From Tritonibacter scottomollicae (lineage in GTDB: Bacteria > Pseudomonadota > Alphaproteobacteria > Rhodobacterales > Rhodobacteraceae), in NCBI RefSeq assembly GCF_003003215.1, contig NZ_PVUF01000013.1:1-64000 (forward strand): a stretch of DNA of 64,000 nt, given 5' to 3'. Position numbers and translations under genes: made by a program. The notes beneath the pieces were generated by a model. That model had not been told where the DNA came from and made no database searches. It worked only from the letters and a program-made list of their open reading frames with translations. Positions within the stretch are counted from its first letter, which is position 1. Each line of letters begins with the position of its first letter. Below are positions 31,335 through 55,487 of this stretch, one piece after another.

Positions 31335-31342
31335 TCTTCATC

Positions 31343-33053: not shown

Positions 33054-33080
33054 ATCATCCACCCACAGGAGAGCACAGAT

Positions 33081-36941: not shown

Positions 36942-36965
36942 CACAGACAACAGGAGCGCAGTGCC

Positions 36966-37757: not shown

Positions 37758-38374
37758 CCCGACGTATGGCGCGCCATGAACTCAGCGATTTCCGCCTGTG
37801 TCGGGGGCTGGCCTGAAAACATCTCCACGTAATGCGGTACGCGGTTCAGGCGCGCGACAGGGTCCTCTTCGACCTCCATCGAGAGATAGCCCACCTGCGT
37901 GTAGATGACCGTAAGGCTTCTGACATCGGCCTGTTCCCTGCTGTAGCCAAAGCGCAGGAACATGTCGTGCACGGCGGCGATGCGGGCATTATCCGCCGCA
38001 TCAAGCCGCCCCGCCAGTGTGGCGTCGTTGCGCGCCCAGTTGCGGATCGCCAGATCGAGGCGGGCATCAAACAGGGTCGGGTCCAGCCAGCAATCCATCA
38101 GGTTGAACAGGGCTGTGTTGACGGTCTGCGCCGGGGCCTCGCAGCGGGCCTGTATCTGGCCGGTATTGCGGGCCTCCCATGTCTCAACCATGGCGTCATG
38201 CAGTGCGCCGAGATCCTTGAAATACCAGTAAAACCCCGTGCGCGTTTGATCCACGGCGCGGGCCAGCGGCATGATTTTCACTGCGTCGATCCCACTAGAG
38301 ACCAAGAGATCAAGCGCGGCATCGAGCCAGAGGTCGCGCGAGCCACGCGGGCGAGGGGAGGTGGGTTTGGACAT
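37754..38374 (-). CDS. TetR-family transcriptional regulator
   Basis: This 206-residue protein has an N-terminal TetR helix-turn-helix (about 13-58; SSGIDAVKIMPLARAVDQTRTGFYWYFKDL) and a variable helical ligand domain. It is divergent from the flavin oxidoreductase gene across 93 bases that hold two copies of a palindrome, one over its own predicted promoter. It is therefore expected to repress itself and the oxidoreductase gene. Confidence 0.88.
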   Translation of the reverse strand: MSKPTSPRPRGSRDLWLDAALDLLVSSGIDAVKIMPLARAVDQTRTGFYWYFKDLGALHDAMVETWEARNTGQIQARCEAPAQTVNTALFNLMDCWLDPTLFDARLDLAIRNWARNDATLAGRLDAADNARIAAVHDMFLRFGYSREQADVRSLTVIYTQVGYLSMEVEEDPVARLNRVPHYVEMFSGQPPTQAEIAEFMARHTSG

Positions 38375-38380
38375 GAGCGC

Positions 38381-38409
38381 ACTCTAAAACAATTGACACA
38401 TGTGTCAAT
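38381..38409 (-). promoter_or_regulatory. Predicted tetR promoter and first palindromic operator
   Basis: On the minus strand TTGACA (38403-38408) and TAGAGT (38381-38386) lie 16 bases apart. The perfect 18-bp palindrome ATTGACACATGTGTCAAT (38392-38409) covers the -35 element. A related palindrome lies 33 bases to the right. Confidence 0.6.
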
Positions 38410-38425
38410 CTGGATGCAGGCTGTC

Positions 38426-38441
38426 TTTACACCTGTGTCAA
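38426..38441. promoter_or_regulatory. Second TetR operator copy, TTTACACCTGTGTCAA
   Basis: This 16-base block matches 14 of 16 bases of the core of the first palindrome (TTGACACATGTGTCAA). It lies 27-42 bases before the flavin oxidoreductase start, where bound repressor would block its transcription. Two similar palindromes in one gap strongly suggest a shared regulator. Confidence 0.6.
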
Positions 38442-38467
38442 GTCACCTGAGTCCACGAGGCAGCGCC

Positions 38468-40513
38468 ATGTCACACGATCCGCTTTTGCAGCCCTTTCAG
38501 CTGAAGCATCTGACCCTTCGCAACCGTATCATGACCACCAGTCATGAACCGGCCTACCCGGAGGATGGCATGCCCAAGGCACGCTACCGCGCCTATCATG
38601 CGGAGCGCGCAAAGGCCGGAGTAGCACTGGCGATGACGGCGGGCTCTGCAGCGGTTTCCAAGGACAGCCCGCCGGTGTTCAACAACATCCTCGCCTACAA
38701 GGACGAGGTGGTGCCGTGGATCACCGACCTGACCGAAGGCTGCCATGAACATGGCTGCGCAGTGATGATCCAGCTGACCCATCTGGGCCGACGCACGGGG
38801 TGGAACAAAGGGGATTGGCTGCCGTCGGTGTCCTCGTCACGGCACCGCGAACCGGCGCACCGGGCTTTTCCCAAGCTTGTCGAGGACTGGGACATCGAGC
38901 GCATCATCACGGATTTCGCCGATGCCGCCGAACGTATGAAAGCCGGGGGTATGGATGGGATCGAGTTGCAGGCCTATGGCCATCTGATCGACCAGTTCTG
39001 GTCACCGCTGACCAATGATCTGAGCGGCCCCTATGGGGCGGATACCTTGGAGAACCGTCTGCGGTTTCCGATGGATGTGCTCTCGGCCATTCGCAAGCGG
39101 GTGGGGGACGAGTTCATTGTTGGTATGCGGTTCACAGCGGATGAGGTGCAAAAAGGCGGCATTACCGCAGAGGAGGGGCTGGACATCACCCGTATCCTGA
39201 GCGCGACGGGGCAGGTGGATTTCCTCAATGTGATCCGGGGGCGCATCCATACCGATCCGGCGATGACCGATGTGATCCCGGTGCAGGGGATGAAATCCGC
39301 GCCGCATCTGGATTTTGCCGGCCGCGTCAAACAGGAAACCGACCTGCCGGTGTTTCACGCCGCGCGCATCCCGGATGTCGCCACCGCGCGCCATGCGGTG
39401 CAGGCGGGGCTGTTGGATATGGTGGGGATGACGCGGGCACATATGGCCGACCCGCATGTGGTGAAAAAAATCCGCGAGGGGCGCGAGGACGACATCCGCC
39501 CTTGTGTGGGGGCCACCTATTGTCTGGACCGGATCTATCAGGCGGGCGATGCGCTGTGCATTCACAACGCCGCAACCGGACGCGAGCTGACGATGCCGCA
39601 CGAGATCACACCTGCCGAGACATCAAAGAAAGTGGTGATCGTGGGTGCAGGCCCCGCGGGGTTGGAGGCCGCGCGCGTGGCCTCCGAGCGCGGTCATAAG
39701 GTCGTGGTCTTTGAGGCGCAGCCTGACCCCGGTGGTCAAATTCGCCTGACCGCGCAATCTCCGCGCCGCCGCGAGATGATCTCCATCATCGACTGGCGCA
39801 TGGCGCAATGTGCGGCGCGGGACGTCCAATTCCACTTTAATACCTGGGCTGAGGAAGAGGATGTGCTGGCGGAAAAACCGGATGTGATTATCATCGCCAC
39901 CGGAGGCCTGCCCAATCTGGAACTGTTTGAGACAGGACAGGAGGCCGCGCATGTGGTCAGCGCTTGGGATCTGATCGCGGGGGACGTGAAACCGGCGGGC
40001 CGCGTGCTGATCTACGACGAAAGCGGCGACCACCCCGGATTGCAGGCCGCAGAAGTGGCGGCTGCGGCGGGGGCTCAGGTTGAGGTCATGACCCCTGATC
40101 GGACCTTTGCGCCTGACATCATGGCGATGAATTTGGTGCCTTACATGCGTGCGCTGCAGGACAAGGATGTGACGTTCACTGTCACCCGCCGCCTGCTGGA
40201 TGTGCAGCGTCAGGGCAATGAGTTGCGGGCCACCATCGGCACGGACTACAGCGATCACAGCACGGAGCAGAGCTACGATCAGGTGGTGGTGAACTACGGC
40301 ACATTGCCCAATGACGATCTGTATCACGCGTTGCGCCCCCACAGCCGCAATGGCGGCGCGGTGGACCACGACGCGCTGATCGCCGGGGGGCCACAGCAGC
40401 TGGAGCGTCACCCGGATGGCAGCTTCCAGCTGTTCCGCATCGGCGACGCAGTTTCTGCCCGCAACACACATGCCGCGATCTATGACGCCCTCCGTTTGGT
40501 GAAAGACCTCTGA
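38468..40513 (+). CDS. Old-yellow-enzyme/trimethylamine-dehydrogenase-type flavin oxidoreductase
   Basis: This 681-residue protein has an N-terminal FMN barrel (about 8-345; QAYGHLIDQFWSPLTN near 168-183) and a C-terminal NAD/FAD-type domain starting at VVIVGAGPAGLEAARVA (about 389). Members include dienoyl-CoA reductase, trimethylamine dehydrogenase and N-methylproline demethylase. The iron-sulfur site between the halves shows C346, C352 and C364, but the fourth position is A349. The ATG at 38468 begins MSHDPLLQPFQLKHL; the longer open frame crosses the tetR gene and is not real. With a ProC-like gene nearby, N-methylproline demethylation is a reasonable guess. Confidence 0.82.
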   Translation: MSHDPLLQPFQLKHLTLRNRIMTTSHEPAYPEDGMPKARYRAYHAERAKAGVALAMTAGSAAVSKDSPPVFNNILAYKDEVVPWITDLTEGCHEHGCAVMIQLTHLGRRTGWNKGDWLPSVSSSRHREPAHRAFPKLVEDWDIERIITDFADAAERMKAGGMDGIELQAYGHLIDQFWSPLTNDLSGPYGADTLENRLRFPMDVLSAIRKRVGDEFIVGMRFTADEVQKGGITAEEGLDITRILSATGQVDFLNVIRGRIHTDPAMTDVIPVQGMKSAPHLDFAGRVKQETDLPVFHAARIPDVATARHAVQAGLLDMVGMTRAHMADPHVVKKIREGREDDIRPCVGATYCLDRIYQAGDALCIHNAATGRELTMPHEITPAETSKKVVIVGAGPAGLEAARVASERGHKVVVFEAQPDPGGQIRLTAQSPRRREMISIIDWRMAQCAARDVQFHFNTWAEEEDVLAEKPDVIIIATGGLPNLELFETGQEAAHVVSAWDLIAGDVKPAGRVLIYDESGDHPGLQAAEVAAAAGAQVEVMTPDRTFAPDIMAMNLVPYMRALQDKDVTFTVTRRLLDVQRQGNELRATIGTDYSDHSTEQSYDQVVVNYGTLPNDDLYHALRPHSRNGGAVDHDALIAGGPQQLERHPDGSFQLFRIGDAVSARNTHAAIYDALRLVKDL

Positions 40514-42174: not shown

Positions 42175-42564
42175 TCAGCCCAGTGGTTTGTAGGCTGTGA
42201 CGTCGATTTCGATCTTCGCATCGACCATCAGTTGCGAACGGACAGTCGAGCGAGACGGGGCGCCATTCGGAAAATAGCTCGCATAGACGCGGTTGAACGT
42301 CCAGAAATCGCGCGGATCATCCAGCCAGACGTTGACCTTGGCCACGTCGTCCAAGGTGCAACCTGCTTTGGCCAATACCGCGATTACATTTTCCATGGTG
42401 CGTTTGGTCTGTGCCTCGATGCCGCCGGGTTCGATTTCGCCGCTTTCTTTCATGGCAACCTGGCCGGAAATGAACACGAAATCACCTGCGCGGGTTGCGG
42501 GGGAAAACGGCAGGTTCTGTCCGCCTGCGCCGGTGCGCTCTGCGCCGATACGTTCGATGGTCAT
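42175..42564 (-). CDS. RidA-family imine/enamine deaminase
   Basis: This 129-residue protein has the RidA fold and the conserved arginine in GAPSRSTVRSQL near residue 103. RidA proteins hydrolyse reactive enamines and imines released by PLP-dependent dehydratases. It is the last gene of the TRAP operon, which also encodes such a PLP enzyme, so the pairing makes biochemical sense. The ATG at 42564 (MTIERIGAERT) has AGGAG upstream; a start at 42603 does not. Confidence 0.9.
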   Translation of the reverse strand: MTIERIGAERTGAGGQNLPFSPATRAGDFVFISGQVAMKESGEIEPGGIEAQTKRTMENVIAVLAKAGCTLDDVAKVNVWLDDPRDFWTFNRVYASYFPNGAPSRSTVRSQLMVDAKIEIDVTAYKPLG

Positions 42565-42590
42565 GGGATATCTCCTGATAGTTGGAAAGG

Positions 42591-43517
42591 TTAGCTTTGC
42601 CACGCAGCGTTCAGCGCGCTGCGTGTGTGGGAAAGGGTTGGAATGGGAGCTACTGCGCCGTAACCAGTTGTCGAAATCGCCGCCGCCATATTCGCGTGTT
42701 CTGCGGCTGCAAACGGGTCTTGCGTGTCCAGCAGGCTTGCCAAGAATGCGCCGTTGAAACAGTCGCCGGCTCCGGTGGCGTCCTTGGCGTCGACGCGATG
42801 CCCCGGAAGGGTACGCATGTCGCCGTCGACAGAGATCAGCACCCCGTCTGCGCCCAGTGTCAGCGCCACGATGCGGGGGCCGAGGTCGTGATAAAACCTG
42901 ACAATCTCCTCCGGAGGCTGCAGCCCGGTCAGTTGTCGCGCATCATCCAAACCGGGCAGCGCGATGTCACAGGCGACCATCACGCTGTGGGTCACCTCCC
43001 GTGCAACCTCAAGCGGCCAGAGCGCAACGCGCAGGTTGGGGTCAAAGGCGAACACGCCACCTGCAGTCCGGGTGGCCTCTGCGGCTGCAACGACCGCAGC
43101 CCGCATGCTGTCAGAGACTGCGAGACTGATACCGGAGGCGTAAAACATCGGGCAGGACTGCAAGGCATCCAGAGGCAACTCATCAGGTGCAAGGCGGCTC
43201 GCGGCTGAACCTTTGCGGCGGTAGGTGAAATGGTGGCCATCCGTGTCATGGGTCACAAAATAGACGCCGGTTTCCTCGCCTTGCGCCTCGGTAACATTGG
43301 CGGTTGAGACGCCTTCATCGGTCCAGAGGCCGCATAGTGCCGCGCCGAAGGGATCAATGCCGACACGTGTGATCAGCCCTGCATTGACCCCGTGTCGCGA
43401 CGCAGAGATCGCCACGTTGGACACATCGCCGCCAAACCCCATGGCGAACTGACCCTCGGGTGTTTGATTGAACTCGACCAGCGGTTCGCCGAGGCAGAGG
43501 ATCTGCGCCGCGCTCAC
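42591..43517 (-). CDS. kdgK: PfkB-family sugar kinase, 2-keto-3-deoxygluconate kinase type
   Basis: This 308-residue ribokinase-fold protein shows KDG-kinase wording: CLGEPLVEFNQ at the start, FGGDVSNVAI near 29, FTYRRKGSAASRLAP near 97-111, FDPNLRVALWP near 157, and the catalytic DATGAGDCFNGAFL near 246-259. Such enzymes phosphorylate 2-keto-3-deoxygluconate to KDPG for the Entner-Doudoroff aldolase. Its start overlaps the PLP enzyme stop by 4 bases. The substrate call is a family inference; other PfkB sugars remain possible. Confidence 0.8.
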   Translation of the reverse strand: MSAAQILCLGEPLVEFNQTPEGQFAMGFGGDVSNVAISASRHGVNAGLITRVGIDPFGAALCGLWTDEGVSTANVTEAQGEETGVYFVTHDTDGHHFTYRRKGSAASRLAPDELPLDALQSCPMFYASGISLAVSDSMRAAVVAAAEATRTAGGVFAFDPNLRVALWPLEVAREVTHSVMVACDIALPGLDDARQLTGLQPPEEIVRFYHDLGPRIVALTLGADGVLISVDGDMRTLPGHRVDAKDATGAGDCFNGAFLASLLDTQDPFAAAEHANMAAAISTTGYGAVAPIPTLSHTRSALNAAWQS

Positions 43518-44569
43518 CAGACCTGCCCTCTTGCAGCAACGGGTTCTGGACCCAAGATCTTGTCTCCGCGCAGCAACGTGACATGCTCGAGCATGTTGGC
43601 GACGACGCAGGCATGGTTTGGCACGATCCGCAGCTGGTCGCCGACAGAAAGCCCGGTGGGGGCATCGCTGACGATGCGGCCATGCTCCTCGCTCAGCTGG
43701 TCGATTGTCAGATCTGGGTGCCCAAGCACATGACCAAAACCGTCCAACCCGAGGAGGTCCGAGGTCAGAACCTTTGACCCCGCGTCGATCACTGCGCGGG
43801 TTTCAGTCGGCGTCGACACCACCGTGGCCAGCACCGTCAGCGCACAATCGGACCATTGGCATGTGCCACGTGTCACCAAGGAGCGGTCGTTATAGATATA
43901 GGTTCCGATCCGGTATTCAGTTGCCATCGGCATTTCATGCGCGCGCCACATGTCGGGGGAGCCGCCAGAGGAAATCACATCCACGGTCAGGTCCGTGGTC
44001 TCGATCAGGTCCTTGGCTTCCGCGAGCCATGTTGTCACGGCAGTTGCGGCGCCCGCAGGCGGGTAGGTCATCAGCCCGGCAAACTGCAGGCCTGGCAAAT
44101 CCTCGATCGCTTGCGCCAATGCCGCCGCCGCCGCCGGGGTGGCCACACCACACCGATCCGCGCCGGTATTGCATTCCACCAACACTGGCAGGGGCGTTGC
44201 CGCATCGGCAAAACCGTCACTCAGTCCCTGCGCCACGGTTATGTTGTCCGCGACGACCGACAGACGGACGCGATCTGACAGGGCGCGCAGTCGCGCGACT
44301 TTTTCACGACCAAGGATGTTGTACGTCAGCAGGACATCGTGAATATCGCCATTTGCAACCATGGCTTCTGCTTCGGTGATTTTCTGGCAGGTGATGCCGA
44401 TCGCACCTTGCTGCACCTGAAACTTTGCCAGACGCGGCAGTTTGTGCGTTTTGATATGGGGGCGAAGTTGCAGTCCGTGGCTGTCGCAATAGCTCTGGAA
44501 AGCGCGGACATTGGCCTCGGCAATATCCAGATCGACCAGAACGGCGGGGGTGTCCAGGGGCAGGTTCAT
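43514..44569 (-). CDS. PLP enzyme, D-threonine aldolase/D-serine dehydratase-like (fold type III)
   Basis: This 351-residue protein has the alanine-racemase-like N-terminal barrel with the PLP lysine in LRPHIKTHK (K40) and a C-terminal metal site with His and Cys in NHACVVANM (about 330). The family includes D-threonine aldolase, eukaryotic-type D-serine dehydratase and, as far as I recall, D-glucosaminate dehydratase. The ATG at 44569 shares one base with the upstream stop (TGATG) and has GAGGAG 8 bases away; a GTG at 44578 would be too close to it. Next to a KDG-type kinase, a dehydratase making 2-keto-3-deoxy acids is attractive. Confidence 0.8.
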   Translation of the reverse strand: MNLPLDTPAVLVDLDIAEANVRAFQSYCDSHGLQLRPHIKTHKLPRLAKFQVQQGAIGITCQKITEAEAMVANGDIHDVLLTYNILGREKVARLRALSDRVRLSVVADNITVAQGLSDGFADAATPLPVLVECNTGADRCGVATPAAAAALAQAIEDLPGLQFAGLMTYPPAGAATAVTTWLAEAKDLIETTDLTVDVISSGGSPDMWRAHEMPMATEYRIGTYIYNDRSLVTRGTCQWSDCALTVLATVVSTPTETRAVIDAGSKVLTSDLLGLDGFGHVLGHPDLTIDQLSEEHGRIVSDAPTGLSVGDQLRIVPNHACVVANMLEHVTLLRGDKILGPEPVAARGQVW

Positions 44570-46035
44570 CAGGCGCACTCCTCTGCATGTGGCGCATCGA
44601 CACGCGGCCAGAGCGCACGGGTCAGGTGCGTGTAGTCCGTATGGATCGGATTGTTTGGATAAGGGCCATCAACGGCAGCGTAGAGGATCTCTCCGGCGAC
44701 CGGCGCAAAGGCCCCGTGAAAGTGGTTGGTGGATTTCACGATCACGATGCGCTTATTCGCAATGTCGATGCCGAGATTGGTGAAGAGATCCGGCGAAAAC
44801 GTCTGGCTGCGATTGGTGTTCAGCACGATGTCCAGATCCCCGATACGGATCACCGCGCAGTCACCGAGGGGAACCACCGAGGTGCCGAAGCTTTGTACCG
44901 CGTCGCGTTGCAGCCGCGTGACGGTGACCTTGGCATCAATCGGCGCGCCCGCGTGGGCGGAGGTCTTGCCGCCAAACCGCAAGTCCAATTCAGCGCCTTC
45001 ACCAGCGGCAAAACACAGGCGCACCGCCATCGGATCCCAGATGGTCCCCAACGCCACACCGCCAAGGTTCTGGTTCAGGGCTTCCTGCAGCAGGATCGTG
45101 GAGTCGCCAGCGACCCCGCCGCCGGGATTGTCCCAGACATCCGCCACCACCACGGGCGTCCTGTCACTCGCATCCGCACGCCGAAGCGCCTCGGCGGGGG
45201 GCAGAAAGTCCGGTTTGGTGCGCCCACGAAAGCCAAAAAGCTCCATCCCCAGAACACGTGCAAGCTGATCGCCGCGTGCTGCGTCATTATCAGTAATGAC
45301 AACAACTTTTGCGCCCAGGTCAGGACTGTCGCCGGCCATGAAGCCATGGATGACAGAGCCCGACAGGATGTCGCCCTGCTCTTCCAAGCTCATGATCTTG
45401 TCCACAAAACCGCGCATCGGCTGAATGCTGGTGGGCAGAACATCCATCATGCGCACGTCGAAAACAGAGATCCGCGGCGCGATCTCACCCCGTGCAGCGC
45501 GCAGGGTCAGGTCGACGCAGGCCTCGCCCGCCTCGACAAAATCGGTGTGGGGGAATTCTTTGAATACGGTAATAATATCGGCGTTCTCGACGCGTTTGGC
45601 GCTCAGGTGGCTGTGCGGATCAAAGCTCACGCCGATCTTGGCACCCGGTCCCGTCAATGCGCGGGCGGACGCGATCAGTTCGCCTTCGCAATCGACGCAG
45701 CCGTCCGCGATCATCGCGCCATGCAGGCCCAATACCACCGCATCGACGGGCAGGGCGGCCTTCAACTGGCTCAGGACCTCATCGCGAAGATGCTCCCAGG
45801 TTGCCGCGCTCACCAGCCCGCCGGGTTCCGCCCATGTGGCGGTGCCCTCGATCAGGGTGAAACCTTCGTCCTTCGCCCGCCGCCGCAAGGCCGGAAATAC
45901 CGCCGAACATAGTGTTGGGGTGTCCGGGTGTTCTCCCGGCGGCGCGTAAAAGCTCTGCGCAAAATCAGAGAAATCGGTGCGCAGCGGCGAGAAGGTGTTG
46001 GTTTCGGTGGCAAGAGAAGCGCAGAAAACGCGCAT
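44569..46035 (-). CDS. M81/MlrC-family metallohydrolase
   Basis: This 488-residue protein has the MlrC N-terminal domain (ETNTFSPLRTDFSDF at the start, GLHGAMIADGCVDCEGELI near 103-121, DPHSHLSAK near 137) and the C-terminal MlrC domain (VVADVWDNPGGGVAGDSTIL near 285-304, VVIVKSTNHFHGAFAP-type segment near 450). MlrC was first seen as a peptidase in microcystin breakdown; most members are of unknown function and sit in catabolic operons beside transporters. Here it may open an amide of the imported compound. That is inference. Confidence 0.82.
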   Translation of the reverse strand: MRVFCASLATETNTFSPLRTDFSDFAQSFYAPPGEHPDTPTLCSAVFPALRRRAKDEGFTLIEGTATWAEPGGLVSAATWEHLRDEVLSQLKAALPVDAVVLGLHGAMIADGCVDCEGELIASARALTGPGAKIGVSFDPHSHLSAKRVENADIITVFKEFPHTDFVEAGEACVDLTLRAARGEIAPRISVFDVRMMDVLPTSIQPMRGFVDKIMSLEEQGDILSGSVIHGFMAGDSPDLGAKVVVITDNDAARGDQLARVLGMELFGFRGRTKPDFLPPAEALRRADASDRTPVVVADVWDNPGGGVAGDSTILLQEALNQNLGGVALGTIWDPMAVRLCFAAGEGAELDLRFGGKTSAHAGAPIDAKVTVTRLQRDAVQSFGTSVVPLGDCAVIRIGDLDIVLNTNRSQTFSPDLFTNLGIDIANKRIVIVKSTNHFHGAFAPVAGEILYAAVDGPYPNNPIHTDYTHLTRALWPRVDAPHAEECA

Positions 46036-46102
46036 GGGGCATATCCTTGAAATTTGGGTTCCGGGGCGCGCGCGTCAAAACCCGCGCCCCGGACGGGGAC
46101 CG

Positions 46103-47146
46103 TTAGTCGAGGTAAGAGGCGTCGTTGGCCTTCCCGACTTCGGATTTGAAGAGCGTCAGCAACTCGCCCGCCTTGGCGTCGAGGTTCTCCGCCACATGGG
46201 CCTCAAACGCGGGCTGAGTGGCACCGGCCATCGCGGCGCGTTGCTCGGCGGACAGGGCGGTCACTTCGATCTTGTCCATCAGACCTGCCAGACCGCGATC
46301 AGAGGCCTCGATGATGCGCGACAGACCGCGGCTGGCGGTGACGCAGCTTTCGGCGGCGGTGTGCAGGGTGTTCTGCTCCGCTTCGGTCAGACCCTCGTAG
46401 AAGGCCTTGTTGACCATGAAGGTGTAGGGCGAGAACAGGTGATTGGTCAGCGTCATGTGCTTTTGCACCTCGGCGAAATTCGCAAAGGAGATGATCGGCA
46501 CCGGGTTCATCTGACCGTCGATCACGCCGGTCTGCAGACCGGAATACACCTCACCCCAGCTGAGCGGATAGGCCTCGGCCCCCAGCGCCTGCACGATTTT
46601 CTGATGGCTCGGCAAGGTCATGGTGCGGATGCGGATGCCGTCGAAATCCTCAAGGTTTGCGATCTGGCGCTGAGAGTTGGTGACGGCAAAGAAGCCGCCG
46701 GTGTCGGGAAAGCCCAGCACCACAACGTCACCCAGCGCATCTTCGATGTCGGCCGCCAATGTTTCGCCGAACTCGCCGTCAAAGACGGAATAGGTGGAGG
46801 CGTTGTTGGCGAAGGCAAACGGCAGGTTCAGCACGTCGATGCGCGGGTAATAGCTGGCCAGCGCGCCGGTGGAGGTCAGCGTCGCCTGGATCACGCCATC
46901 GCGCACCTGCTGCACATGTTCGGCAGCGGTGCCAAGCTGGTTGGAGCCGAAAACCTCGACCGTGACGCTGCCATTGGTGTCGGCGGTCACGATGTTTTGG
47001 AACACGGCCGTGCAGGCATGGGCCGGGTTTTCAAACGGATCGGTCTTGTTGTCATGTCCAAAGCGGATGGTGCCACCGGCCATCGCGGAGCTTGCGGTCA
47101 GGGCGGCCAACGCGCCGACGGCAGCCGTTTTCAATGCTGTGTTCAT
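46103..47146 (-). CDS. TRAP transporter substrate-binding protein (DctP)
   Basis: This 347-residue protein has a Sec signal (MNTALKTAAVGALAALTASSAMA) and the DctP core, with the carboxylate-binding arginine in the GIRIRTMTLPSHQKIVQALG segment (about 174-193) and LQTGVIDGQMNP near 209. GAGGAAAA precedes the ATG. Its gene follows the permease genes in this operon, the reverse of the other TRAP operon in this window. The bound solute is an organic acid; a sugar acid or amino-sugar acid is suggested by the enzymes encoded downstream. Confidence 0.9.
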   Translation of the reverse strand: MNTALKTAAVGALAALTASSAMAGGTIRFGHDNKTDPFENPAHACTAVFQNIVTADTNGSVTVEVFGSNQLGTAAEHVQQVRDGVIQATLTSTGALASYYPRIDVLNLPFAFANNASTYSVFDGEFGETLAADIEDALGDVVVLGFPDTGGFFAVTNSQRQIANLEDFDGIRIRTMTLPSHQKIVQALGAEAYPLSWGEVYSGLQTGVIDGQMNPVPIISFANFAEVQKHMTLTNHLFSPYTFMVNKAFYEGLTEAEQNTLHTAAESCVTASRGLSRIIEASDRGLAGLMDKIEVTALSAEQRAAMAGATQPAFEAHVAENLDAKAGELLTLFKSEVGKANDASYLD

Positions 47147-47192
47147 TTGATTTTCCTCACTGTTGGGTTGGTTTTTTTTGGTGGTTGGTTGG

Positions 47193-47209
47193 GCCCCCGA
47201 TCAGGGGGC
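47193..47209 (-). terminator. Hairpin at the dctM stop
   Basis: GCCCCC (47193-47198) pairs with GGGGGC (47204-47209) around a 5-base loop that contains part of the dctM stop codon. It separates the permease genes from dctP and could protect or attenuate the message. Confidence 0.4.
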
Positions 47210-48487
47210 AAATCCGAGCGCACGCGGCAGCAACAGGGCCGCGTTCTCCCAGAATGCGAATAGGAAAAGGATGATCACTTCGGCGATCAGGAAGGGGGCG
47301 AGCTTCACTGAAATGCGCTCCAGCTTCTCGCCGGTCACCGAGGACAGAACGAAGAGGCAGGCCCCTACGGGGGGCGTCATCAATGAGATGTTGAGGGCCA
47401 GTACAAAGATGATGCCCGCGTGGATGGGCTCCAGTCCGATTTGTTCGGTGAGCGGCACGAGGACCGGCCCGAGGATGATCAGGATCGCGGTGATATCCAT
47501 CACCATGCCGACCACCAACAGAATGCAAATGATGATGGCGATGATGGCATAGGGGTTGTCCGACAGCCCCAGCACGGTGCTGGCGATGGCCTGCGGAATA
47601 CGCTCAAAGCTCATCCACCAGCCGAGGATGCCGGCAAAGGCGATGATGACGAAGATCACGCCGGTGATCCGCGCAGTGCGCACCAGCATCGCATAGAGTT
47701 CGCGGAAGGTCAGTGTGCGGTAGACGAAGAAGCCGATGAACAGCGCATAGGCCACAGCGATGGAGGCCGCTTCGGTCGGGGTGACGATGCCGCCAAGGAT
47801 GCCGCCTAGGATGATGATTGGCATCAAAAGCGCGGTGATCGACGAGAGGAAGGTCTGCCAGATTTCGCCCAATGTGGCGCCGCGTTCGGCTTTGGGCAGG
47901 TTCTCGCGTTTGCCGCCGATGGCGATTACGCTCATGCAGACGGCGCAAATCACCAGGCCGGGCAGCAGCCCTGCCGCGAACAATCCGCCGATCGAGACCC
48001 CCATCAGCGAGCCGTAGACCACCATCAGCCCCGAAGGAGGAATGGTCGGCCCGATGATCGACCCGGCCGCGGTGACCGCGCAGGCGTAGTCGCGTTTGTA
48101 GCCCTGCTTCACCATTGCGGGCACCAGCGTGCGGCCAAAGGCGGCGGCATCGGCGGTGGCAGATCCGGTGAGCCCGGCAAAGAACACCGAGGCCAGCATG
48201 TTTGTGTGCGCCAGCCCGCCCCGGAAGCGGCCCACCAGTACCTCTGCCAGTTTCACCAACCGTCCGGTGATGCCGGTGCTGTTCATGATCTCACCCGCCA
48301 GAATGAAGAACGGCATGGCGAGGAAGGGAAAAATATTGAGCCCGTTGAAGATCTTGCTGGGGCCAATGGCGAGAAACGTGGTGCCGCCGCCCATGGTGAA
48401 GATACCGATGACGCCCGCCAGGCCAATGGCAAAGCCGATCGGCATGCCAACGGCGAGGAGCAGGACAAAACAGAGGCCGACGATCAT
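47201..48487 (-). CDS. TRAP transporter large permease subunit (DctM)
   Basis: This 428-residue protein has the standard DctM length and sequence: LLLAVGMPIGFAIGLAGVIG at the start, TSSA-like GLTGSATADAAAFGRTLVPA near 110, and GGIVTPTEAASIAVAYALFI near 240. Start and DctQ stop overlap by 4 bases. It is the ion-coupled channel for the solute brought by the DctP encoded downstream. Confidence 0.94.
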   Translation of the reverse strand: MIVGLCFVLLLAVGMPIGFAIGLAGVIGIFTMGGGTTFLAIGPSKIFNGLNIFPFLAMPFFILAGEIMNSTGITGRLVKLAEVLVGRFRGGLAHTNMLASVFFAGLTGSATADAAAFGRTLVPAMVKQGYKRDYACAVTAAGSIIGPTIPPSGLMVVYGSLMGVSIGGLFAAGLLPGLVICAVCMSVIAIGGKRENLPKAERGATLGEIWQTFLSSITALLMPIIILGGILGGIVTPTEAASIAVAYALFIGFFVYRTLTFRELYAMLVRTARITGVIFVIIAFAGILGWWMSFERIPQAIASTVLGLSDNPYAIIAIIICILLVVGMVMDITAILIILGPVLVPLTEQIGLEPIHAGIIFVLALNISLMTPPVGACLFVLSSVTGEKLERISVKLAPFLIAEVIILFLFAFWENAALLLPRALGFAP

Positions 48488-49005
48488 GCGCCCGCTCCTT
48501 CTTCAGAGGGGGTGTCGGGCAGGTCGAGCTGACGGCCCATATCGCGGATCATCACCAGCACCACTTGCACGCAGGCCAAAGCTGCGGCGGTCGGGATCGC
48601 CGCGTAGAAAGGTTGCAGCGTCGCGCCGAGGATCATCGCCTGACGTTTGGCGCCGCTTTCGGCGAAGCCGATGCCGAACCAGAGTACGTAGAAGAACAGC
48701 GCAAATGTCATCAGGTCGATTCCGATCAGCATGGCACGGCGCAGGGGGGCAGGCAGGTTCAAGAGCACCGCCGTCAGGCCGATGTGTTCGCGCCGTGCGA
48801 TGCCCGAGGACACCGCCAGCATCGCGGCCCAGATCATCAGGTAACGGGCCAGCACCTCGGGCCAGGGCAGTTGCCAGTGAAAGAAGTAGCGATCCACGAC
48901 GCCGATCCAGACGTCGAGCACCAGCGCCACCATCAGCGCCGCAAGGATGACTTCGGTTCCCCGATTGAGCTGTCGGCTGATCCGATCTGCGATATCCCCA
49001 AGCAT
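48484..49005 (-). CDS. TRAP transporter small permease subunit (DctQ)
   Basis: This 173-residue protein has four membrane helices and the usual DctQ charge pattern. It is the first gene of a seven-gene operon (DctQ, DctM, DctP, M81 hydrolase, PLP enzyme, kinase, RidA). GGGGAGG precedes the ATG. Its promoter is flanked by two of the three repeated operators in the gap to rpiR. Confidence 0.88.
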   Translation of the reverse strand: MLGDIADRISRQLNRGTEVILAALMVALVLDVWIGVVDRYFFHWQLPWPEVLARYLMIWAAMLAVSSGIARREHIGLTAVLLNLPAPLRRAMLIGIDLMTFALFFYVLWFGIGFAESGAKRQAMILGATLQPFYAAIPTAAALACVQVVLVMIRDMGRQLDLPDTPSEEGAGA

Positions 49006-49023
49006 GAGCGCCTCCCCGCATTT

Positions 49024-49038
49024 TGTAATTAAGGTACA
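49024..49038. promoter_or_regulatory. Operator 1 for RpiR-type regulator, TGTA-N7-TACA
   Basis: TGTAATTAAGGTACA lies in the untranslated leader of dctQ, touching the predicted -10 element on its downstream side. It is one of three related 15-mers in this gap, with centres 52 and then 62 bases apart, close to whole helix turns. Confidence 0.6.
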
Positions 49039-49067
49039 TATTCACGGTTGCATCGTCGCTCGGTCAA
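49038..49067 (-). promoter_or_regulatory. Predicted promoter of the dctQMP-enzyme operon
   Basis: On the minus strand TTGACC (49062-49067) and GAATAT (49038-49043) are separated by 18 bases. The -10 match is only moderate. Operator 1 lies just downstream and operator 2 just upstream, an arrangement that would allow looping or blocking by a tetrameric regulator. Confidence 0.4.
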
Positions 49068-49075
49068 GTTATTTT

Positions 49076-49090
49076 TGTTACCAAAGTACA
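49076..49090. promoter_or_regulatory. Operator 2 for RpiR-type regulator (TGTT-N7-TACA variant)
   Basis: TGTTACCAAAGTACA differs from the other two copies by one base in the left arm. It lies upstream of the predicted -35 of the TRAP operon and between the two divergent promoters. Confidence 0.5.
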
Positions 49091-49125
49091 AATATCGAAG
49101 ATTTCAGGAAAAAACCGGCGTATGT

Positions 49126-49154
49126 TTGACGTCAAAATGTATCTTAGGTACAGA
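49126..49154 (+). promoter_or_regulatory. Predicted rpiR promoter
   Basis: TTGACG (49126-49131) and TACAGA (49149-49154) are separated by exactly 17 bases. Operator 3 occupies the spacer and the first bases of the -10, which predicts autorepression. The start codon is 29 bases after the -10. Confidence 0.55.
49138..49152. promoter_or_regulatory. Operator 3 for RpiR-type regulator, TGTA-N7-TACA
   Basis: TGTATCTTAGGTACA overlaps the predicted rpiR -10 element. The three copies share the form TGT(A/T)-N7-TACA, with AAGG, AAAG or TAGG just before the right arm. Confidence 0.6.
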
Positions 49155-49182
49155 ATCAAGGAGAGGTCTTCAGGAGTTACAG

Positions 49183-50088
49183 ATGCCGACAGTCGAATCC
49201 AGCCCGGCGCAGGGCGCTGTGGACCTGATCTCCAACCTGCGACAATTGCACGGTCAATTTGCAGCCAGGGAGCAGAAGGTCGCGGATTTTGTCGCGGCGC
49301 ATCTTGAGGATATATCGAGTATGACCATCGCGGAGCTGGCGGGGGCCTGCGGTGTCAGCACCCCAACCGTTGTGCGGTTTTGCCGAACGATGGGCTGTGA
49401 CGGGTTCCGCGACTTCAAATTGCGCTTGGCGCAGAACTTAGCGGTCAGCCTGCAATATCTCGCGCCCAGCCAGAGGGACGCGCAGGAGGGGAGCGTCAAC
49501 GCCGTCGATCAGGTACTGGGCGCTCTCTATGCGACCGTGAATGTCATGCGCCAACAGCTCGACCCAGAGCGCCTCGACGCGGCGGTGCAGGCCGTGGCGA
49601 CCGCCGGGCAGATCGTTGTGGCTGGCGTGGGTGGCGGCTCCACAATGGTGGCGCAGGAAGCGGCCAGCCGTCTGTTTCGGTTGGGTATCCCGGCTGTCGC
49701 GGTGTCCGATAGCTATCTGTTGCAGATGCGTGCGGCAACGTTGGGCAAGGGCGATGTGTTGCTGCTTGTGTCCACCAGTGGCGAGGCCGGCGAGATCGTC
49801 AGTGCGGCTGGTGTCGCGGGCGGCTATGGCGCCACTGTCATCGCGATTACCCGCCCCGACAGCCGTCTGGCGCAGGAGGCTACGATCGTGATCGAAGCCG
49901 ACCTGCCCGAGGATCCGGACATCCTGAAACCGACCGCCTCGCGTTATGCGCATTTGGTTATTGTCGATGCGCTGGCGATGTCGGTGGCGCAGCTCAGAAG
50001 CGAGGCCACGACGGAAAACCTGCGCCGCATCCGCGCCTCGCTCACCGCGTATCACGGGCGTACCGGACCACAGCCGCTGGGCGACTAA
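49183..50088 (+). CDS. RpiR/MurR-family transcriptional regulator
   Basis: This 301-residue protein has an N-terminal RpiR helix-turn-helix (about 15-90; MTIAELAGACGVSTPTVVRF) and a C-terminal SIS domain (about 130-270) that senses a phosphosugar. It is divergent from the TRAP-enzyme operon, and three operator-like repeats lie between. KDPG or a related sugar phosphate would be a fitting effector if the kinase call is right. The ATG at 49183 has CAGGAG upstream; an in-frame start at 49048 would run through the operators. Confidence 0.9.
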   Translation: MPTVESSPAQGAVDLISNLRQLHGQFAAREQKVADFVAAHLEDISSMTIAELAGACGVSTPTVVRFCRTMGCDGFRDFKLRLAQNLAVSLQYLAPSQRDAQEGSVNAVDQVLGALYATVNVMRQQLDPERLDAAVQAVATAGQIVVAGVGGGSTMVAQEAASRLFRLGIPAVAVSDSYLLQMRAATLGKGDVLLLVSTSGEAGEIVSAAGVAGGYGATVIAITRPDSRLAQEATIVIEADLPEDPDILKPTASRYAHLVIVDALAMSVAQLRSEATTENLRRIRASLTAYHGRTGPQPLGD

Positions 50089-50090: not shown

Positions 50091-50123
50091 GCCCAGCGGG
50101 ATTCTTCGCTCAACCCCGCTGGG
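50091..50123. terminator. Bidirectional hairpin between convergent rpiR and chiS-like genes
   Basis: GCCCAGCGGG (50091-50100) pairs exactly with CCCGCTGGGC (50114-50123). The loop contains the stop codon of the chiS-like gene, and the stem starts 2 bases after the rpiR stop. It can end transcription from both sides, though T-runs are absent. Confidence 0.6.
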
Positions 50124-53100
50124 CAATCAGGGCACGGAACTCATCGAGGCGTGTCTCCAGCTCGGCGAAGCGGGTCGTCAGATCCTCGTCTGCCGTCTCA
50201 CGTGCGTCCAGCGCGAGCACGAAGCTCGCTGTTTTCAACACGTCGCGCCAGCGGGGATTGTCGGGCAGGGTTTCGATCAGCAGATATTTGTCCAGTGTCC
50301 GCGTCTGCAATGAGGTCTTGTCGAGGTTGACGCGCCAGATGCCACTGGTCTCGGCAAAGTCGATCTTGCCCTTGCCGGTTGCCGCACTCCAGATTTCGAG
50401 CGAGTCCGACATCAACTCCACGATCATGTCCCGGTAGGTATCACCGGGTGCAGTGGCGGCATCCGCTTGGGTCTCATTGGAAATCAGGGAGGGCAGCGAT
50501 GTATCGACCACATCCCGCAGCGAATGCACGAATTGCGCTCGGGGACTGTCCGACTGGCTGAACAGGACGGCCCGCCCGCCTCCGGCTTCGGGCAGCATCG
50601 CAAACAGGCTGATCTGATGGGGCTCCCCACGCAGGCTGAGTGTCATATGGATCGGCTCATCCTCCACCTCGGTTTGTTCCAGCGGCGCAAGGATCTCCGG
50701 TGGCAGTACCTCGTGCAGGCGGCTGCGGTTCACAGTCACGCGCCGGTCTAGGACCTGCTGTGCCGCCTCGTTGGCATAGGTCACAACGCCGCGCGCATTG
50801 ATGCACATCAGCCCGTCCTCCAGCGTATCGAGCAGCTGGGTCATACGGCGCTGGGACAGGCGCAGGGCGTCTTCGATCTGGATGCGGCGTTCGATCTCTT
50901 CTTTAAGTTCGCGGTTTTCCACGGCACGGCTGCGCGCGTGGCTTGCCTCTAATAAAGTCCGGATCCGGCTCAGCAGCTCGTCCTTGACGAAAGGCTTCAC
51001 CACATAATCGTTCGCCCCCGCCTCGAACCCGGCCAGCATGTCGCTGGTGCGCCCGCGTGCGGTCAGCAGGATGATCGGCAGTTCGTGCAGCCCATGCCGC
51101 CGCCGCAGGTTGCGCGCCACATCCAGGCCGCTCAACCCTGCCATCATCACATCCAGCACGATGAGGTCAGGGCGGGATTGTGCAACGCTCCGCAGGGCAT
51201 CCGACCCGTTGCTGGCCGTGGTGACGCGATAGCCCTGTGGGTGCAGGACGTTCTGCAAGACCTGCAAATTGATCGGTTCGTCATCCACAGCCAGGATCAC
51301 CGGTGCGCCCTCGTTCGTGACAGGGGCCGCTCTGTCTGGATCGGAGCTGAACTCTAGCGGCGGCGCAATCGCCGTTGGCGCCCAATCCTCGGACAGCGAG
51401 GCAGCGGGTAGATCGGAAATCGGCAGTAATGCCCGAAACACCGCCCCTTCGCCCGGTGTGCTGGCCACCTCGATACTGCCGGACATCAGCGCCGCGAGGT
51501 GGCGGGCGATCGTCAGGCCCAGCCCGGTTCCGGTGGCCTGCCCGGATCCATCCGGGGTGAGCTGTTCGAGCGGGTGAAAGATCCGCTCCATACTGTCGGA
51601 GGCGATGCCGGGGCCGTGATCGCGAATTGCAACGGCGAGCTGACCATCGTTGCGCGGTGTTGCGGTAATCTCGACAGTGCTGCCACCCCCATATTTTACG
51701 GCGTTGGACAACAGGTTGAACAGGATCTGTTCAAATCGCACCGGGTCGGCGGTGACGGCGGGCAGATCTGAGGGCAGATCCAGATGAAACTTTGCAGGGT
51801 CTATCTGAAAGGTGGGTTGCAACAGATGCAGCACATTGCGCAGCGCGTGCGACACGTCCACCGGCTGCATATCAAGCCGCATACGACCCTCGCGGATACG
51901 GTAGATGTCCAACAGATCGTCCACCAGTCGCGACAGCCTGCGCGCGCTGAAGGTGATCAGGCGCAGCTGGCTTGCCTGCGCGGGCAGCATGTCGCCCATG
52001 GCCCCGCCTTCGAGCGTTTCCAGTATGCCGATGATGCCGTTCAGCGGTGTGCGCAGCTCATGCGAGGTATTGGCCAGAAACCGGTCCTTCATCCGGTCGG
52101 CCTCTTCCAGCTTGGCGTTCTTTTCGCCGATCTGACGCAGGTTTTCCTGCAGTTCTGCGTTCTTGTCGCGGATCATGTCCAACTGATCGCGCAGGGCGCG
52201 GCGCATCTGGTTCACGGCACGGGAGAGGCGGGCGTATTCAACCGGGTGATCATATTCCGGCAGCGCTTCGTTCAGGCTGCCGGTGGCCACGGCGCTGGCA
52301 GCTTCGGACATGCGCCGCACGGGCCGGGTCAGGGCGTTGGAAAACAACAGCGACAATATCCCCAGCCCCGTAACGGCCACCGTGCCGATGAGCAGCAGTG
52401 CATTTCGCAGGCGGCTGCTGGTTTCAAACGCCGCATCCTTGTCCGCTTCGGCGATCAACGTCCAGGTCGGAAATGGCGCTTCCAGCACGCGCCAAGCCGA
52501 CAGGGAGGGGGTTCCTGACAGGCCGGCGTCCAGCACCGTGACCCCATCGGCCCCCGTCATCGCCTCGGGCACCACGATCGGCGCGCCCGGCGCCGGGGTG
52601 CCGCTGGAGGCGATGACAGTTCCGCCGGTAGAGATGACTGTCAGCGCGGTTGTGCTCTTGGTCATCAGGCTTTGCAGGCTGTTGGGCGGCATCCGCAGGA
52701 TCATTGCCCCCTTATGGCGACCATGCAGGCGCACAGGAACGGCCAGATAGGCCGAAAGCTCACCGGTCATTCCGTCGCGCGCGTAATCCTGAAACACCGG
52801 GTCAAAACCGGCCTGGCTCACTGCGCGGCTGTAGGCTTGTCCCAGGCCTGCCATCTCCGGATCGAGGATGCGTCCCAGATACCGGTCCTTCTCTACGGAA
52901 TAGACCACCTGGCCATTGCGATCTGCGAGGTAGAGATTGTCGAATTCCGCTTCGTTCAGAAAATCCAGAAACCCTGCATGAAACCGGCGGTGCGTGTTGG
53001 AATATTCCAGCGCCTCGCGCAGCAACCGATCCTCGCTTCCGACGCCAGAGGGCGGCGGGTCGGGGCCATCAATTCCGAATATGTTGCGCAGTTGGCGCCC

Positions 53101-53400
53101 GGCATCCTCCGGCGTGTCTGCAAGCTGTCGCAGCGCATGACTGAAGCCATAGAACTCCCCCACCGAGTAGCGCACGTTGGCCGATTGCGCGAGGTTCTCT
53201 GCCTGCCTGACCGCATATGTCATGTACTGCGTGATCTCGCTTGCCTTGGCGTCGCGTACAAAGGCCACCTTCTGAAACGTCTCGGTGGCGATCGTCTGGT
53301 TCACCAGGCGGTAGAACACCAGCCCGCCAAGCGTCAGCGGCAGGACTGAAGCCAGCAGGAACGTCAACAACAGGCGGGCGCGGATTCCCTGAAGAGGCAC
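50110..53400 (-). CDS. chiS: ChiS-like hybrid sensor kinase with C-terminal ChiS-type DNA-binding region
   Basis: This 1096-residue membrane protein has in order: a helix (about 8-30), a periplasmic sensor (about 35-330), a second helix (about 333-355), HAMP, a coiled coil (about 400-440), HisKA with H447 in NTSHELRTPLNG, HATPase (about 545-660; GTGLGLTIARHL), a receiver with D750 in LIVLDVMM, a PAS-like segment (about 855-950) and a C-terminal block (about 985-1065; SGIWRVNLDKTSLQTRTLDK then LPDNPRWRDVL). In Vibrio ChiS a comparable C-terminus is a noncanonical DNA-binding domain that activates chitin genes. The gene is divergent from a family-5 ABC system and GH20, as in Vibrio. Chitin sensing in this organism is inference. 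Confidence 0.83.
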   Translation of the reverse strand: MPLQGIRARLLLTFLLASVLPLTLGGLVFYRLVNQTIATETFQKVAFVRDAKASEITQYMTYAVRQAENLAQSANVRYSVGEFYGFSHALRQLADTPEDAGRQLRNIFGIDGPDPPPSGVGSEDRLLREALEYSNTHRRFHAGFLDFLNEAEFDNLYLADRNGQVVYSVEKDRYLGRILDPEMAGLGQAYSRAVSQAGFDPVFQDYARDGMTGELSAYLAVPVRLHGRHKGAMILRMPPNSLQSLMTKSTTALTVISTGGTVIASSGTPAPGAPIVVPEAMTGADGVTVLDAGLSGTPSLSAWRVLEAPFPTWTLIAEADKDAAFETSSRLRNALLLIGTVAVTGLGILSLLFSNALTRPVRRMSEAASAVATGSLNEALPEYDHPVEYARLSRAVNQMRRALRDQLDMIRDKNAELQENLRQIGEKNAKLEEADRMKDRFLANTSHELRTPLNGIIGILETLEGGAMGDMLPAQASQLRLITFSARRLSRLVDDLLDIYRIREGRMRLDMQPVDVSHALRNVLHLLQPTFQIDPAKFHLDLPSDLPAVTADPVRFEQILFNLLSNAVKYGGGSTVEITATPRNDGQLAVAIRDHGPGIASDSMERIFHPLEQLTPDGSGQATGTGLGLTIARHLAALMSGSIEVASTPGEGAVFRALLPISDLPAASLSEDWAPTAIAPPLEFSSDPDRAAPVTNEGAPVILAVDDEPINLQVLQNVLHPQGYRVTTASNGSDALRSVAQSRPDLIVLDVMMAGLSGLDVARNLRRRHGLHELPIILLTARGRTSDMLAGFEAGANDYVVKPFVKDELLSRIRTLLEASHARSRAVENRELKEEIERRIQIEDALRLSQRRMTQLLDTLEDGLMCINARGVVTYANEAAQQVLDRRVTVNRSRLHEVLPPEILAPLEQTEVEDEPIHMTLSLRGEPHQISLFAMLPEAGGGRAVLFSQSDSPRAQFVHSLRDVVDTSLPSLISNETQADAATAPGDTYRDMIVELMSDSLEIWSAATGKGKIDFAETSGIWRVNLDKTSLQTRTLDKYLLIETLPDNPRWRDVLKTASFVLALDARETADEDLTTRFAELETRLDEFRALIAQRG

Positions 53401-53480
53401 GATGACTCCGGTTTTTCTGGTTTTGTCTGCGGGCGATCCTGCGATTTGCTTCTGCTCGAAGCAAGGGCACGGAGTGAGTG

Positions 53481-53498
53481 TGGCGCAGAGTGGCGCAG
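53481..53498 (+). repeat. Tandem 10-bp repeat TGGCGCAG in the divergent control region
   Basis: TGGCGCAG occurs at 53481-53488 and 53491-53498, exactly one helix turn apart, with GTG preceding each copy. It lies about 80 bases upstream of the chiS-like start and could be a regulator binding site. Confidence 0.35.
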
Positions 53499-53624
53499 TT
53501 CTTGGTATCCCATAGCATATTGATAGGCATGAACTATTTTAGATTTCGTAGAGGCCGACCGCCCTCTTTTGACGAAATTTCCGATTTTTCGGGTACCATT
53601 GCGACTGCAGCGCGGACTTCATTG

Positions 53625-53636
53625 TGGGACGTCCCA
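53625..53636. promoter_or_regulatory. Perfect palindrome TGGGACGTCCCA, candidate operator
   Basis: A 12-bp perfect palindrome lies about 110 bases upstream of the binding-protein gene, just past the weak promoter-like elements. The binding protein is unknown; the chiS-like product is one candidate. Confidence 0.35.
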
Positions 53637-53746
53637 AGCGCTCGGGAGGAGACTGGGCGCTTTGATGTGTTCCGGTCGCCAGAGGGCGGACGTTGACGGG
53701 ATGACACGAGGCGGGGCAAACCCGCCACCACAGGGAGAAATTGATA

Positions 53747-55402: not shown

Positions 55403-55417
55403 TTCCTCCCCAAACTT

Positions 55418-55450
55418 GGGACCGCTCCCCGAGCGGGCGGTCCCCTTTTT
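55418..55450 (+). terminator. Terminator-like hairpin between binding-protein and permease genes
   Basis: GGGACCGC (55418-55425) pairs with GCGGTCCC (55437-55444) and is followed by CTTTTT. It would end most transcripts after the binding protein and allow limited read-through into the permease genes. Confidence 0.7.
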
Positions 55451-55487
55451 GTGCCGATCTCCCCCTTTCGACAGATGGTTTGACCTG

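Follow-up and report, generated by a model that had tools for sequence, protein, structure and literature searches.

What is the role of an operon that joins a tripartite ATP-independent periplasmic (TRAP) transporter to an M81 hydrolase, a fold-III pyridoxal phosphate (PLP) enzyme, a PfkB-family kinase and a RidA protein? The question is raised by 64,000 nt of contig NZ_PVUF01000013.1 of Tritonibacter scottomollicae, the whole stretch analysed here and called the window, in which an open reading frame (ORF) listing places seven minus-strand ORFs, ridA, kinase, PLP, M81, dctP, dctM and dctQ, at 42175-49005. We consider it likely that this operon serves the catabolism of N-acetyl-D-glucosaminate (GlcNAc1A), the oxidised end unit of chitin, by a variant of a published route in which the M81 protein is the likely N-deacetylase. 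The original prediction had recognised the seven-gene set, which the ORFs and their Pfam families confirm, and had proposed for it an undescribed path from an N-acyl-glucosaminate to 2-keto-3-deoxygluconate (KDG) plus ammonia and then to its 6-phosphate (KDPG), with the help of RidA and an SIS-domain regulator. Its chemistry agrees with most of our findings, but the route is not undescribed, because each step has been published with other parts (OngB, OngC, KdgK, OngD and OngR).

Those parts belong to the ong cluster. According to Jiang et al. (2022; PMC9537276), OngB, of the D-aminoacylase family, deacetylates GlcNAc1A to D-glucosaminate (GlcN1A), the fold-III PLP enzyme OngC converts the latter to KDG and ammonia, and KdgK phosphorylates KDG to KDPG; the RidA protein OngD is essential, with its role left open, and OngR, of the RpiR family, acts as a repressor. 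The same text reports oxidised-chitin catabolism, with lytic polysaccharide monooxygenase (LPMO), from Gammaproteobacteria and one betaproteobacterium only. The chain of the window operon is in this respect already published, and the RidA and RpiR-family partners are present in the window; what is new is an M81 protein in the place of the deacetylase, a PLP enzyme of another clade and import by TRAP. In literature searches that lay mostly outside subscription journals, nothing was found that links glucosaminate with a TRAP transporter, a glucosaminate dehydratase with threonine aldolase, or an M81 protein with a RidA operon, and none of the matches listed for an N-acetylglucosaminic acid deacetylase in Rhizobium mentions that acid.

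In the route that we propose, the TRAP transporter would take up GlcNAc1A, a chitin end unit oxidised at C1, and the M81 protein, with a zinc-bound water, would strip off the acetyl group to leave D-glucosaminate. From this the PLP enzyme, acting as a dehydratase of the D-serine/D-threo-hydroxyaspartate dehydratase type, would eliminate water, RidA would hasten hydrolysis of the resulting enamine/imine to KDG and ammonia, and the kinase would convert KDG to KDPG. One of two KDPG-aldolase-family proteins, whose genes both lie elsewhere in the genome than in the operon, would then yield pyruvate and glyceraldehyde-3-phosphate. The HexR-like regulator would repress the divergent promoter via TGTA-N7-TACA sites, from which KDPG would release it.

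The gene set and its importers in related genomes

Loci and genomes of relatives (L and G numbers below) were obtained with two queries, the PLP gene and OngB, plus an M81-based check, and their neighbours were labelled by tblastn with thresholds of our own within a radius of 9 kb. A PLP protein scan of named genomes kept 80 of 129 loci, and in a phylum sample 80 of 398 Pseudomonadota genomes matched at E ≤ 1e-25. PLP homologues of at least 44% identity are called window-type (32 genomes) and those of at most 39% canonical; co-occurrence was counted where a locus spanned 11 kb or more, a set of 90 window-type, seven canonical and 16 OngC loci. Among the 90, M81 was found in 71, OngB in none, RpiR in 71, RidA in 58, GH20 in 47 and a short-chain dehydrogenase/reductase (SDR) in 55, and where M81 and PLP genes occur together they lie on the same strand and less than 200 bp apart in 67 of 71 cases. 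With an M81 gene no farther than 9 kb from the PLP gene in 71 of the 90 relatives, many of which are near-copies from rhizobia, the gene set of the operon is more than a chance association. None of the scored partners was near any of the seven canonical PLP genes. The OngC loci have OngB in 16 of 16, a figure that holds by construction because the OngB query fetched those loci, and M81 in none. Window-type M81 (at least 52% identity) was present in 16 of the 398 genomes, all of them also possessing a window-type PLP gene. In the family of the window genome, M81 was detected in 18 of 248 genomes, the window genome counted; the other 17 M81 regions include a window-type PLP gene in 11 cases, an OngC-type gene in three and neither in three, and the last three genomes have PLP homologues elsewhere, at 48, 41 (with an internal stop) and 50% identity.

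The importers of the 90 loci vary, and the accompanying genes vary with them. M81 accompanies all 14 TRAP loci, none of which has SDR or GH20, while the 50 loci with a sugar-type ATP-binding cassette (ABC) importer have M81 in 49, an SDR of the sugar-dehydrogenase type in 49 and GH20 in 43. Both Opp loci and the single GntP locus contain M81, as do five of 20 loci without an importer label; the three loci with an amino-acid-type ABC importer (L004, L019 and L122) have the PLP gene, kinase and RidA and no M81. This is as expected if an imported sugar has to be oxidised and an imported acid does not, and if, a point that concerns just the three amino-acid-type loci, a substrate that is already de-acetylated needs no deacetylase. 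The distribution of SDR (49 of 50 sugar-type ABC loci, 0 of 14 TRAP loci) fits a TRAP transporter that imports the acid itself.

Two further features of these loci deserve record. In G361 the pathway appears to be split, with TRAP, M81 and RpiR genes at L182 and PLP, kinase, RidA and amino-acid ABC importer genes at L122. A conserved protein of about 160 residues, possibly an unrecognised pathway component, is encoded near the M81/PLP genes (e.g., L041:7898-8452, L187:2720-3190 and L198:7845-8336), with matches in 74 loci, overlapping loci counted, that are weak (28%) in a few; it had no Pfam match (two tested) and no NCBIfam match (three tested), and was not found in the window or its genome.

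The PLP enzyme, the M81 protein and their counterparts

Is the PLP enzyme an aldolase or a dehydratase? The label "D-threonine-aldolase-like", given to it by the original prediction, is misleading, as its metal motif (VPNHACVVAN, i.e., H-A-C) is of the dehydratase type. In our alignment H-x-C is found in 142 of 142 window-type rows whereas H-x-D is found in nine of nine canonical, D-threonine-aldolase-like rows; the corresponding motif of OngC-type rows is SHPC in 23 of 26 and GHPC in the remaining three, and H-x-C is thus common to both types (all these row counts take in overlapping loci of the same genes). Of the solved structures, D-threo-3-hydroxyaspartate dehydratase (3wqc, with deposited variants 3wqg, Cys to Ala, and 4pb3, His to Ala) has H-x-C, as presumably does the fold-III dehydratase 3anu, and the aldolases 4v15 and 6qkb have H-x-D. 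Because H-x-C matches the solved dehydratase while the aldolases have H-x-D, the predicted activity of the PLP enzyme is most likely that of a metal-dependent dehydratase. By our own stereochemical reading D-glucosaminate would be a threo-3-hydroxy-D-amino acid, the class used by such dehydratases. A second PLP homologue in the same genome (C19:30271-31353, 34% identity) has H-x-D and is likelier to be a D-threonine or hydroxyaspartate aldolase.

The PLP enzyme is about 25% identical to OngC-type proteins. In quick trees, supported by SH-aLRT only and built after removal of near-copies (73 of 164 PLP rows and 42 of 138 M81 rows kept), the 17 OngC-type rows (support 100) and the seven canonical rows (support 97) each form one side of a branch, and the window-type rows join a long-branched relative from L114 (support 98). 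No OngB-type D-aminoacylase gene occurs in the operon, and a genome-wide search at E ≤ 1e-120 gave no match either. Orthology of the window enzymes with OngB and OngC can be dismissed on these three grounds: the missing OngB match, the low OngC identity and the separate tree groups. The L114 region itself (4393-13185) has an RpiR/OngB/RidA/SSS unit and, adjoining it, genes for a second RidA, a second SSS importer, a PLP enzyme with H-x-C and a deacylase of the ArgE/DapE type, perhaps an instance of a further deacylase serving a similar route. Among the OngB-type matches listed, six of 40 (in G098, G252, G328, G199, G258 and G284) have one or two stops in the matched frame.

All eight proteins, those of the operon and the regulator, pass the gathering score of their main Pfam family, and none of the operon's enzymes reaches an NCBIfam equivalog cut-off. 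The M81 protein scores far above the cut-offs for DUF1485 (22.8 bits) and MlrC_C (27.2 bits), and its best NCBIfam model is MlrC (379 bits vs. a cut-off of 999). In PMC9982164 the zinc ligands of MlrC are given as E39, D167, H169 and H191 (H196 is printed in one passage) and E70 as the general base. The ligands align with E11, D139, H141 and H163 of the window protein, and across 100 M81 rows with 45% identity or more the last three residues are kept throughout, while E11 is present in 97 and gapped in three. Microcystin breakdown was rejected as a function on account of the MlrC score and the replacement of the catalytic Glu70 with Leu. In the M81 tree a 23-row group (support 99) unites roseobacter, rhizobial, Komagataeibacter and gammaproteobacterial copies with the OngC-paired copy of L191; elsewhere in this tree, though not in the clade of the window, long branches that meet call for caution. 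On balance, we favor N-deacetylation of GlcNAc1A as the predicted activity of the window M81 protein. A second, distant M81 protein (approximately 27-33% identical to that of the window) is encoded beside GH20 in sugar-ABC clusters (L131:2500-3816, L213:14723-16036, L216:3484-4797 and others).

Exchanges of parts between loci bear on this assignment. Window-type M81 genes (52-71% identity) are paired with OngC-type PLP genes in four loci: in L191, L219 and L220 the two are immediate neighbors, and in L208, a window-like TRAP operon (M81 71%, DctM 80%), they are 1.4 kb apart, separated by RidA and IclR genes. Window-type PLP genes are missing from the genomes of L208 (G399, best match 33%) and L219 (G436) and occur elsewhere in those of L220 (G543) and L191 (G382). 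The converse arrangement is found in L171, where OngB-like and OngC-like genes accompany an ABC importer that shares 60-64% identity in its permeases, 57-60% in its ATPase and 55-59% in its binding protein with the importers of four M81 loci (L183, L184, L186 and L187). As this swap rests on M81 missing there, an M81 gene beyond the edge of L171 would have undone it; none was found in the 10 kb beyond the left edge, and the best M81 match of that genome, at 31%, is on another contig. From these comparisons M81 seems to stand in place of OngB-type genes in relatives. We lean towards the view that a clade of M81 proteins acts as carbohydrate-acid N-deacetylases (GlcNAc1A deacetylases), replacing OngB and, with an independent clade of PLP dehydratases, carrying oxidised-chitin catabolism. 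With similar reserve, we would extend it to roseobacters, rhizobia, an acetic-acid bacterium and some Gammaproteobacteria, with TRAP, sugar-ABC, Opp and GntP importers being interchangeable.

The kinase has as its best NCBIfam model the bifunctional KDG/KDGal (2-keto-3-deoxygalactonate) kinase, at 169 bits vs. a cut-off of 400, and keeps the motifs Y-x-R-x-G-S-A and D-x-N-x-R, which have a role in KDG binding. L160 and L172 hold relatives of it (47 and 53% identical), which adjoin OngB in the former and an OngB-like gene in the latter. Two kinase types serve the same cluster: in L121 and L198, TRAP-M81-PLP loci from another family, the kinase resembles that of the window (29-30% identity) less than it does the one in the ong-type cluster L155 (38%), and the window and L155 kinases share 29%.

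The regulator and the chitin-type neighbors

Control by RpiR, as originally predicted, holds in so far as an RpiR gene adjoins the operon; it is divergent, on the plus strand, and lies outside the same-strand run (Table 1). Likewise, of the tight or overlapping junctions claimed, the RidA/kinase overlap is probably an artefact, because the ORF letters make an internal ATG at 42564 the more likely start of RidA. The same kind of reading puts the regulator's likely ATG at residue 46 of its listed ORF (49183), which leaves a promoter gap of 177 bp. Of the three TGTA-N7-TACA sites between dctQ and this start, two are exact and one has a single mismatch; the window has one further exact site, at 14460, and its total of three exact sites compares with 0.09 expected. 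In 18 divergent promoter regions, that of the window included, we counted 35 such sites with at most one mismatch vs. 2.0 in shuffles, with a motif derived from the same regions and with two locus pairs (L008/L205 and L010/L207) that are probably the same contigs, which affects both this set and the M81-based check. The best NCBIfam model for the regulator is HexR, whose cut-off of 296 bits it does not reach (194 bits). PMC5489143 describes RccR, a KDPG-binding regulator of the RpiR family, with the 15-bp site TGTAGT-N3-ACTACA, and gives the HexR site as TTGT-N7-8-ACAA. KDPG is a plausible effector of the window regulator because its operator-like sites resemble those of KDPG-sensing RccR/HexR.

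Table 1. Features of the operon and its surroundings in the window (activities and operator sites as predicted)
Feature	Position	Strand	Basis
RidA-family enamine/imine deaminase	42175-42603	-	PF01042 (Ribonuc_L-PSP) 97 bits; likely start 42564
PfkB-family kinase, predicted KDG kinase	42591-43517	-	PF00294 166 bits; motifs YRRKGSA, DPNLR
Fold-III PLP enzyme, predicted D-glucosaminate dehydratase (deaminating)	43514-44578	-	PF14031 (D-ser_dehydrat) and PF01168 (Ala_racemase_N); H-x-C metal motif
M81 (MlrC-like) zinc amidohydrolase, predicted N-acetyl-D-glucosaminate deacetylase	44569-46035	-	PF07364 (DUF1485) 261 bits, PF07171 (MlrC_C) 179 bits
TRAP solute-binding protein DctP	46103-47146	-	PF03480 226 bits; nearest solved chain 4p47
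TRAP large permease DctM	47201-48487	-	PF06808 385 bits
TRAP small permease DctQ	48484-49005	-	PF04290 79 bits
Predicted operator TGTAATTAAGGTACA	49024-49038	n/a	exact TGTA-N7-TACA
RpiR-family regulator, HexR-like	49048-50088	+	PF01418 (HTH_6) 74 bits, PF01380 (SIS) 62 bits; likely start 49183
Predicted operator TGTTACCAAAGTACA	49076-49090	n/a	one mismatch
Predicted operator TGTATCTTAGGTACA	49138-49152	n/a	exact TGTA-N7-TACA
Hybrid sensor histidine kinase (dCache-like, HAMP, HisKA, HATPase, receiver)	50110-53400	-	dCache_1 match below cut-off
Chitooligosaccharide-type binding protein, Opp-type ABC importer	53741-55402	+	556 bits to 1zty; 8i5j, 6lzu, 5yqw score similarly
Two permeases and two ATPases of chitooligosaccharide-type ABC importer	55416-59101	+	
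GNAT acetyltransferase	59094-59549	+	
GH20 beta-N-acetylhexosaminidase	59587-61470	+	346 bits; sole GH20 match in whole genome

The GH20 gene closes an operon with genes for a binding protein that matches the chitin-oligosaccharide-binding protein 1zty, two permeases and two ATPases. These chitin-type neighbors, together with GH20 in 47 of the 90 relatives, count in favor of GlcNAc1A catabolism. Between the regulator and this importer operon is the gene for a hybrid sensor kinase, divergent from that of the binding protein, an arrangement reminiscent of ChiS beside CBP in Vibrio; in L001, L002, L003 and L005, too, the regulator has both genes as neighbors. No operator-like site (at most one mismatch) was found upstream of the chitin-importer operon (53401-53740). 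Elsewhere in the window, 62027-63292 encodes a methionine gamma-lyase (765 bits vs. a cut-off of 666), and 29754-40513 holds another catabolic cluster, with two Opp-type binding proteins, a ProC-like reductase and an OYE-family flavoenzyme. Scans of the window with Rfam, at the gathering threshold, and for tRNAs gave no matches.

Rival readings and known systems

A number of observations weigh against GlcNAc1A catabolism as we have outlined it. The column of the MlrC general base holds Leu42 in the window protein, and Leu in 98 of the 100 rows of at least 45% identity, and therefore a different general base would be needed; in literature searches that were thin on subscription journals, no M81 protein acting on a sugar was found. 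M81 is missing nearby from 19 of the 90 window-type PLP loci, 12 of which are without any scored partner, and 16 of the 32 genomes of the phylum sample with a window-type PLP gene have no window-type M81. Most loci are rhizobial near-copies, and the separation of OngB from M81 is confounded by taxonomy; nor is it strict, given that OngC-type PLP genes pair with OngB in some loci and with M81 in others and that L192 holds an OngB-like gene (48%) and M81 (46%) together. A kinase is near the PLP gene in just eight of 90 loci and five of 14 TRAP loci. The sensor-kinase and binding-protein neighbors were not found in the other TRAP loci compared, whose fetched flanks end a few kb past the regulator. 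LPMO_10 (PF03067) had no matches in the genome, in a search whose control matched one of 14 known genomes, that of Lactococcus lactis, and GlcNAc1A would therefore come from others or from another oxidase. Lastly, PMC12017989 treats the Ser292/Gln298 pair of Pseudoalteromonas prydzensis OngB (PpOngB) as the mark of GlcNAc1A deacetylases; the alignment has Thr and Tyr at these positions in the OngB-like protein of L171, and the swap there may therefore concern a sister substrate.

Could the same chain, then, act on another N-acyl amino-sugar acid, such as N-acetyl-D-galactosaminate, and lead to KDGal and its phosphate, KDPGal? The bifunctional best model of the kinase and the L171 enzyme without the GlcNAc1A signature would suit such a substrate, as would the nearby GH20 gene, GH20 enzymes acting on GlcNAc or GalNAc. 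However, the importer next door has chitooligosaccharide-binding proteins as its nearest matches and the RccR-like operator sites point to KDPG, and we judge this substrate unlikely. It also appears improbable that free D-glucosaminate or another 3-hydroxy-D-amino acid is used while M81 performs an unrelated hydrolysis, such as peptide or lactam cleavage. MlrC is indeed a peptidase, and L004, L019 and L122 have the PLP gene, kinase and RidA without M81; yet those three loci use amino-acid importers, M81 is retained where the importer is TRAP or sugar-ABC, and M81 occupies the place of OngB in other loci. We give very little credence to an amino-acid route by D-threonine aldolase or 3-hydroxyaspartate (like the beta-hydroxyaspartate cycle). 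Its appeal lies in whole-length scores, by which the nearest solved relatives of the PLP enzyme are the D-threonine aldolases 4v15 and 7dib and the BhcC-type 6qkb, and in BhcC being its best NCBIfam model. That match reaches 190 bits vs. a cut-off of 690, and H-A-C stands in place of H-x-D, grounds on which identity with D-threonine aldolase or BhcC was rejected; moreover, a separate H-x-D homologue exists elsewhere in the genome, and the kinase and the chitin context would be left unexplained.

If GlcNAc1A catabolism is the correct reading, an orphan branch of M81 would gain a function, in a family best known from microcystin breakdown, and oxidised-chitin catabolism would extend to roseobacters and rhizobia. 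A genome without detected LPMO_10 would then feed on acids released by others, and OngD-like RidA proteins would have a second genetic context.

How does the locus compare with known systems? With MlrC and other M81 proteins (7ylq, 3iuu) the window protein has in common its family and the zinc ligands Glu, Asp, His and His, and differs in the Leu at the catalytic Glu70 and in a context of amino-sugar catabolism rather than microcystin breakdown. The PLP enzyme resembles the D-threo-3-hydroxyaspartate and D-serine dehydratases (3wqc, 3gwq) in fold III and H-x-C, although by whole-length score it is nearer to the H-x-D aldolases and its predicted substrate is a sugar acid. The regulator belongs with HexR and RccR to the RpiR family, and TGTA-N7-TACA consists of the outer bases of the 15-bp RccR site, but it scores below the HexR cut-off and its sites are at its own promoter, with none at that of the chitin importer. 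The ong pathway of P. prydzensis, the OngB structure of which is described in PMC12017989, employs the D-aminoacylase OngB where the window operon has M81, a PLP enzyme of the OngC clade where the window has one of another clade, an SSS inner-membrane importer instead of TRAP, and an LPMO, of which no LPMO_10 representative was found in the window genome. It nevertheless has in common with the window a deacylase, a PLP enzyme, RidA, a kinase, an RpiR-family regulator, an importer and a GH20 gene in the same region, and the ong-type clusters compared here, like the window, have an H-x-C PLP enzyme.

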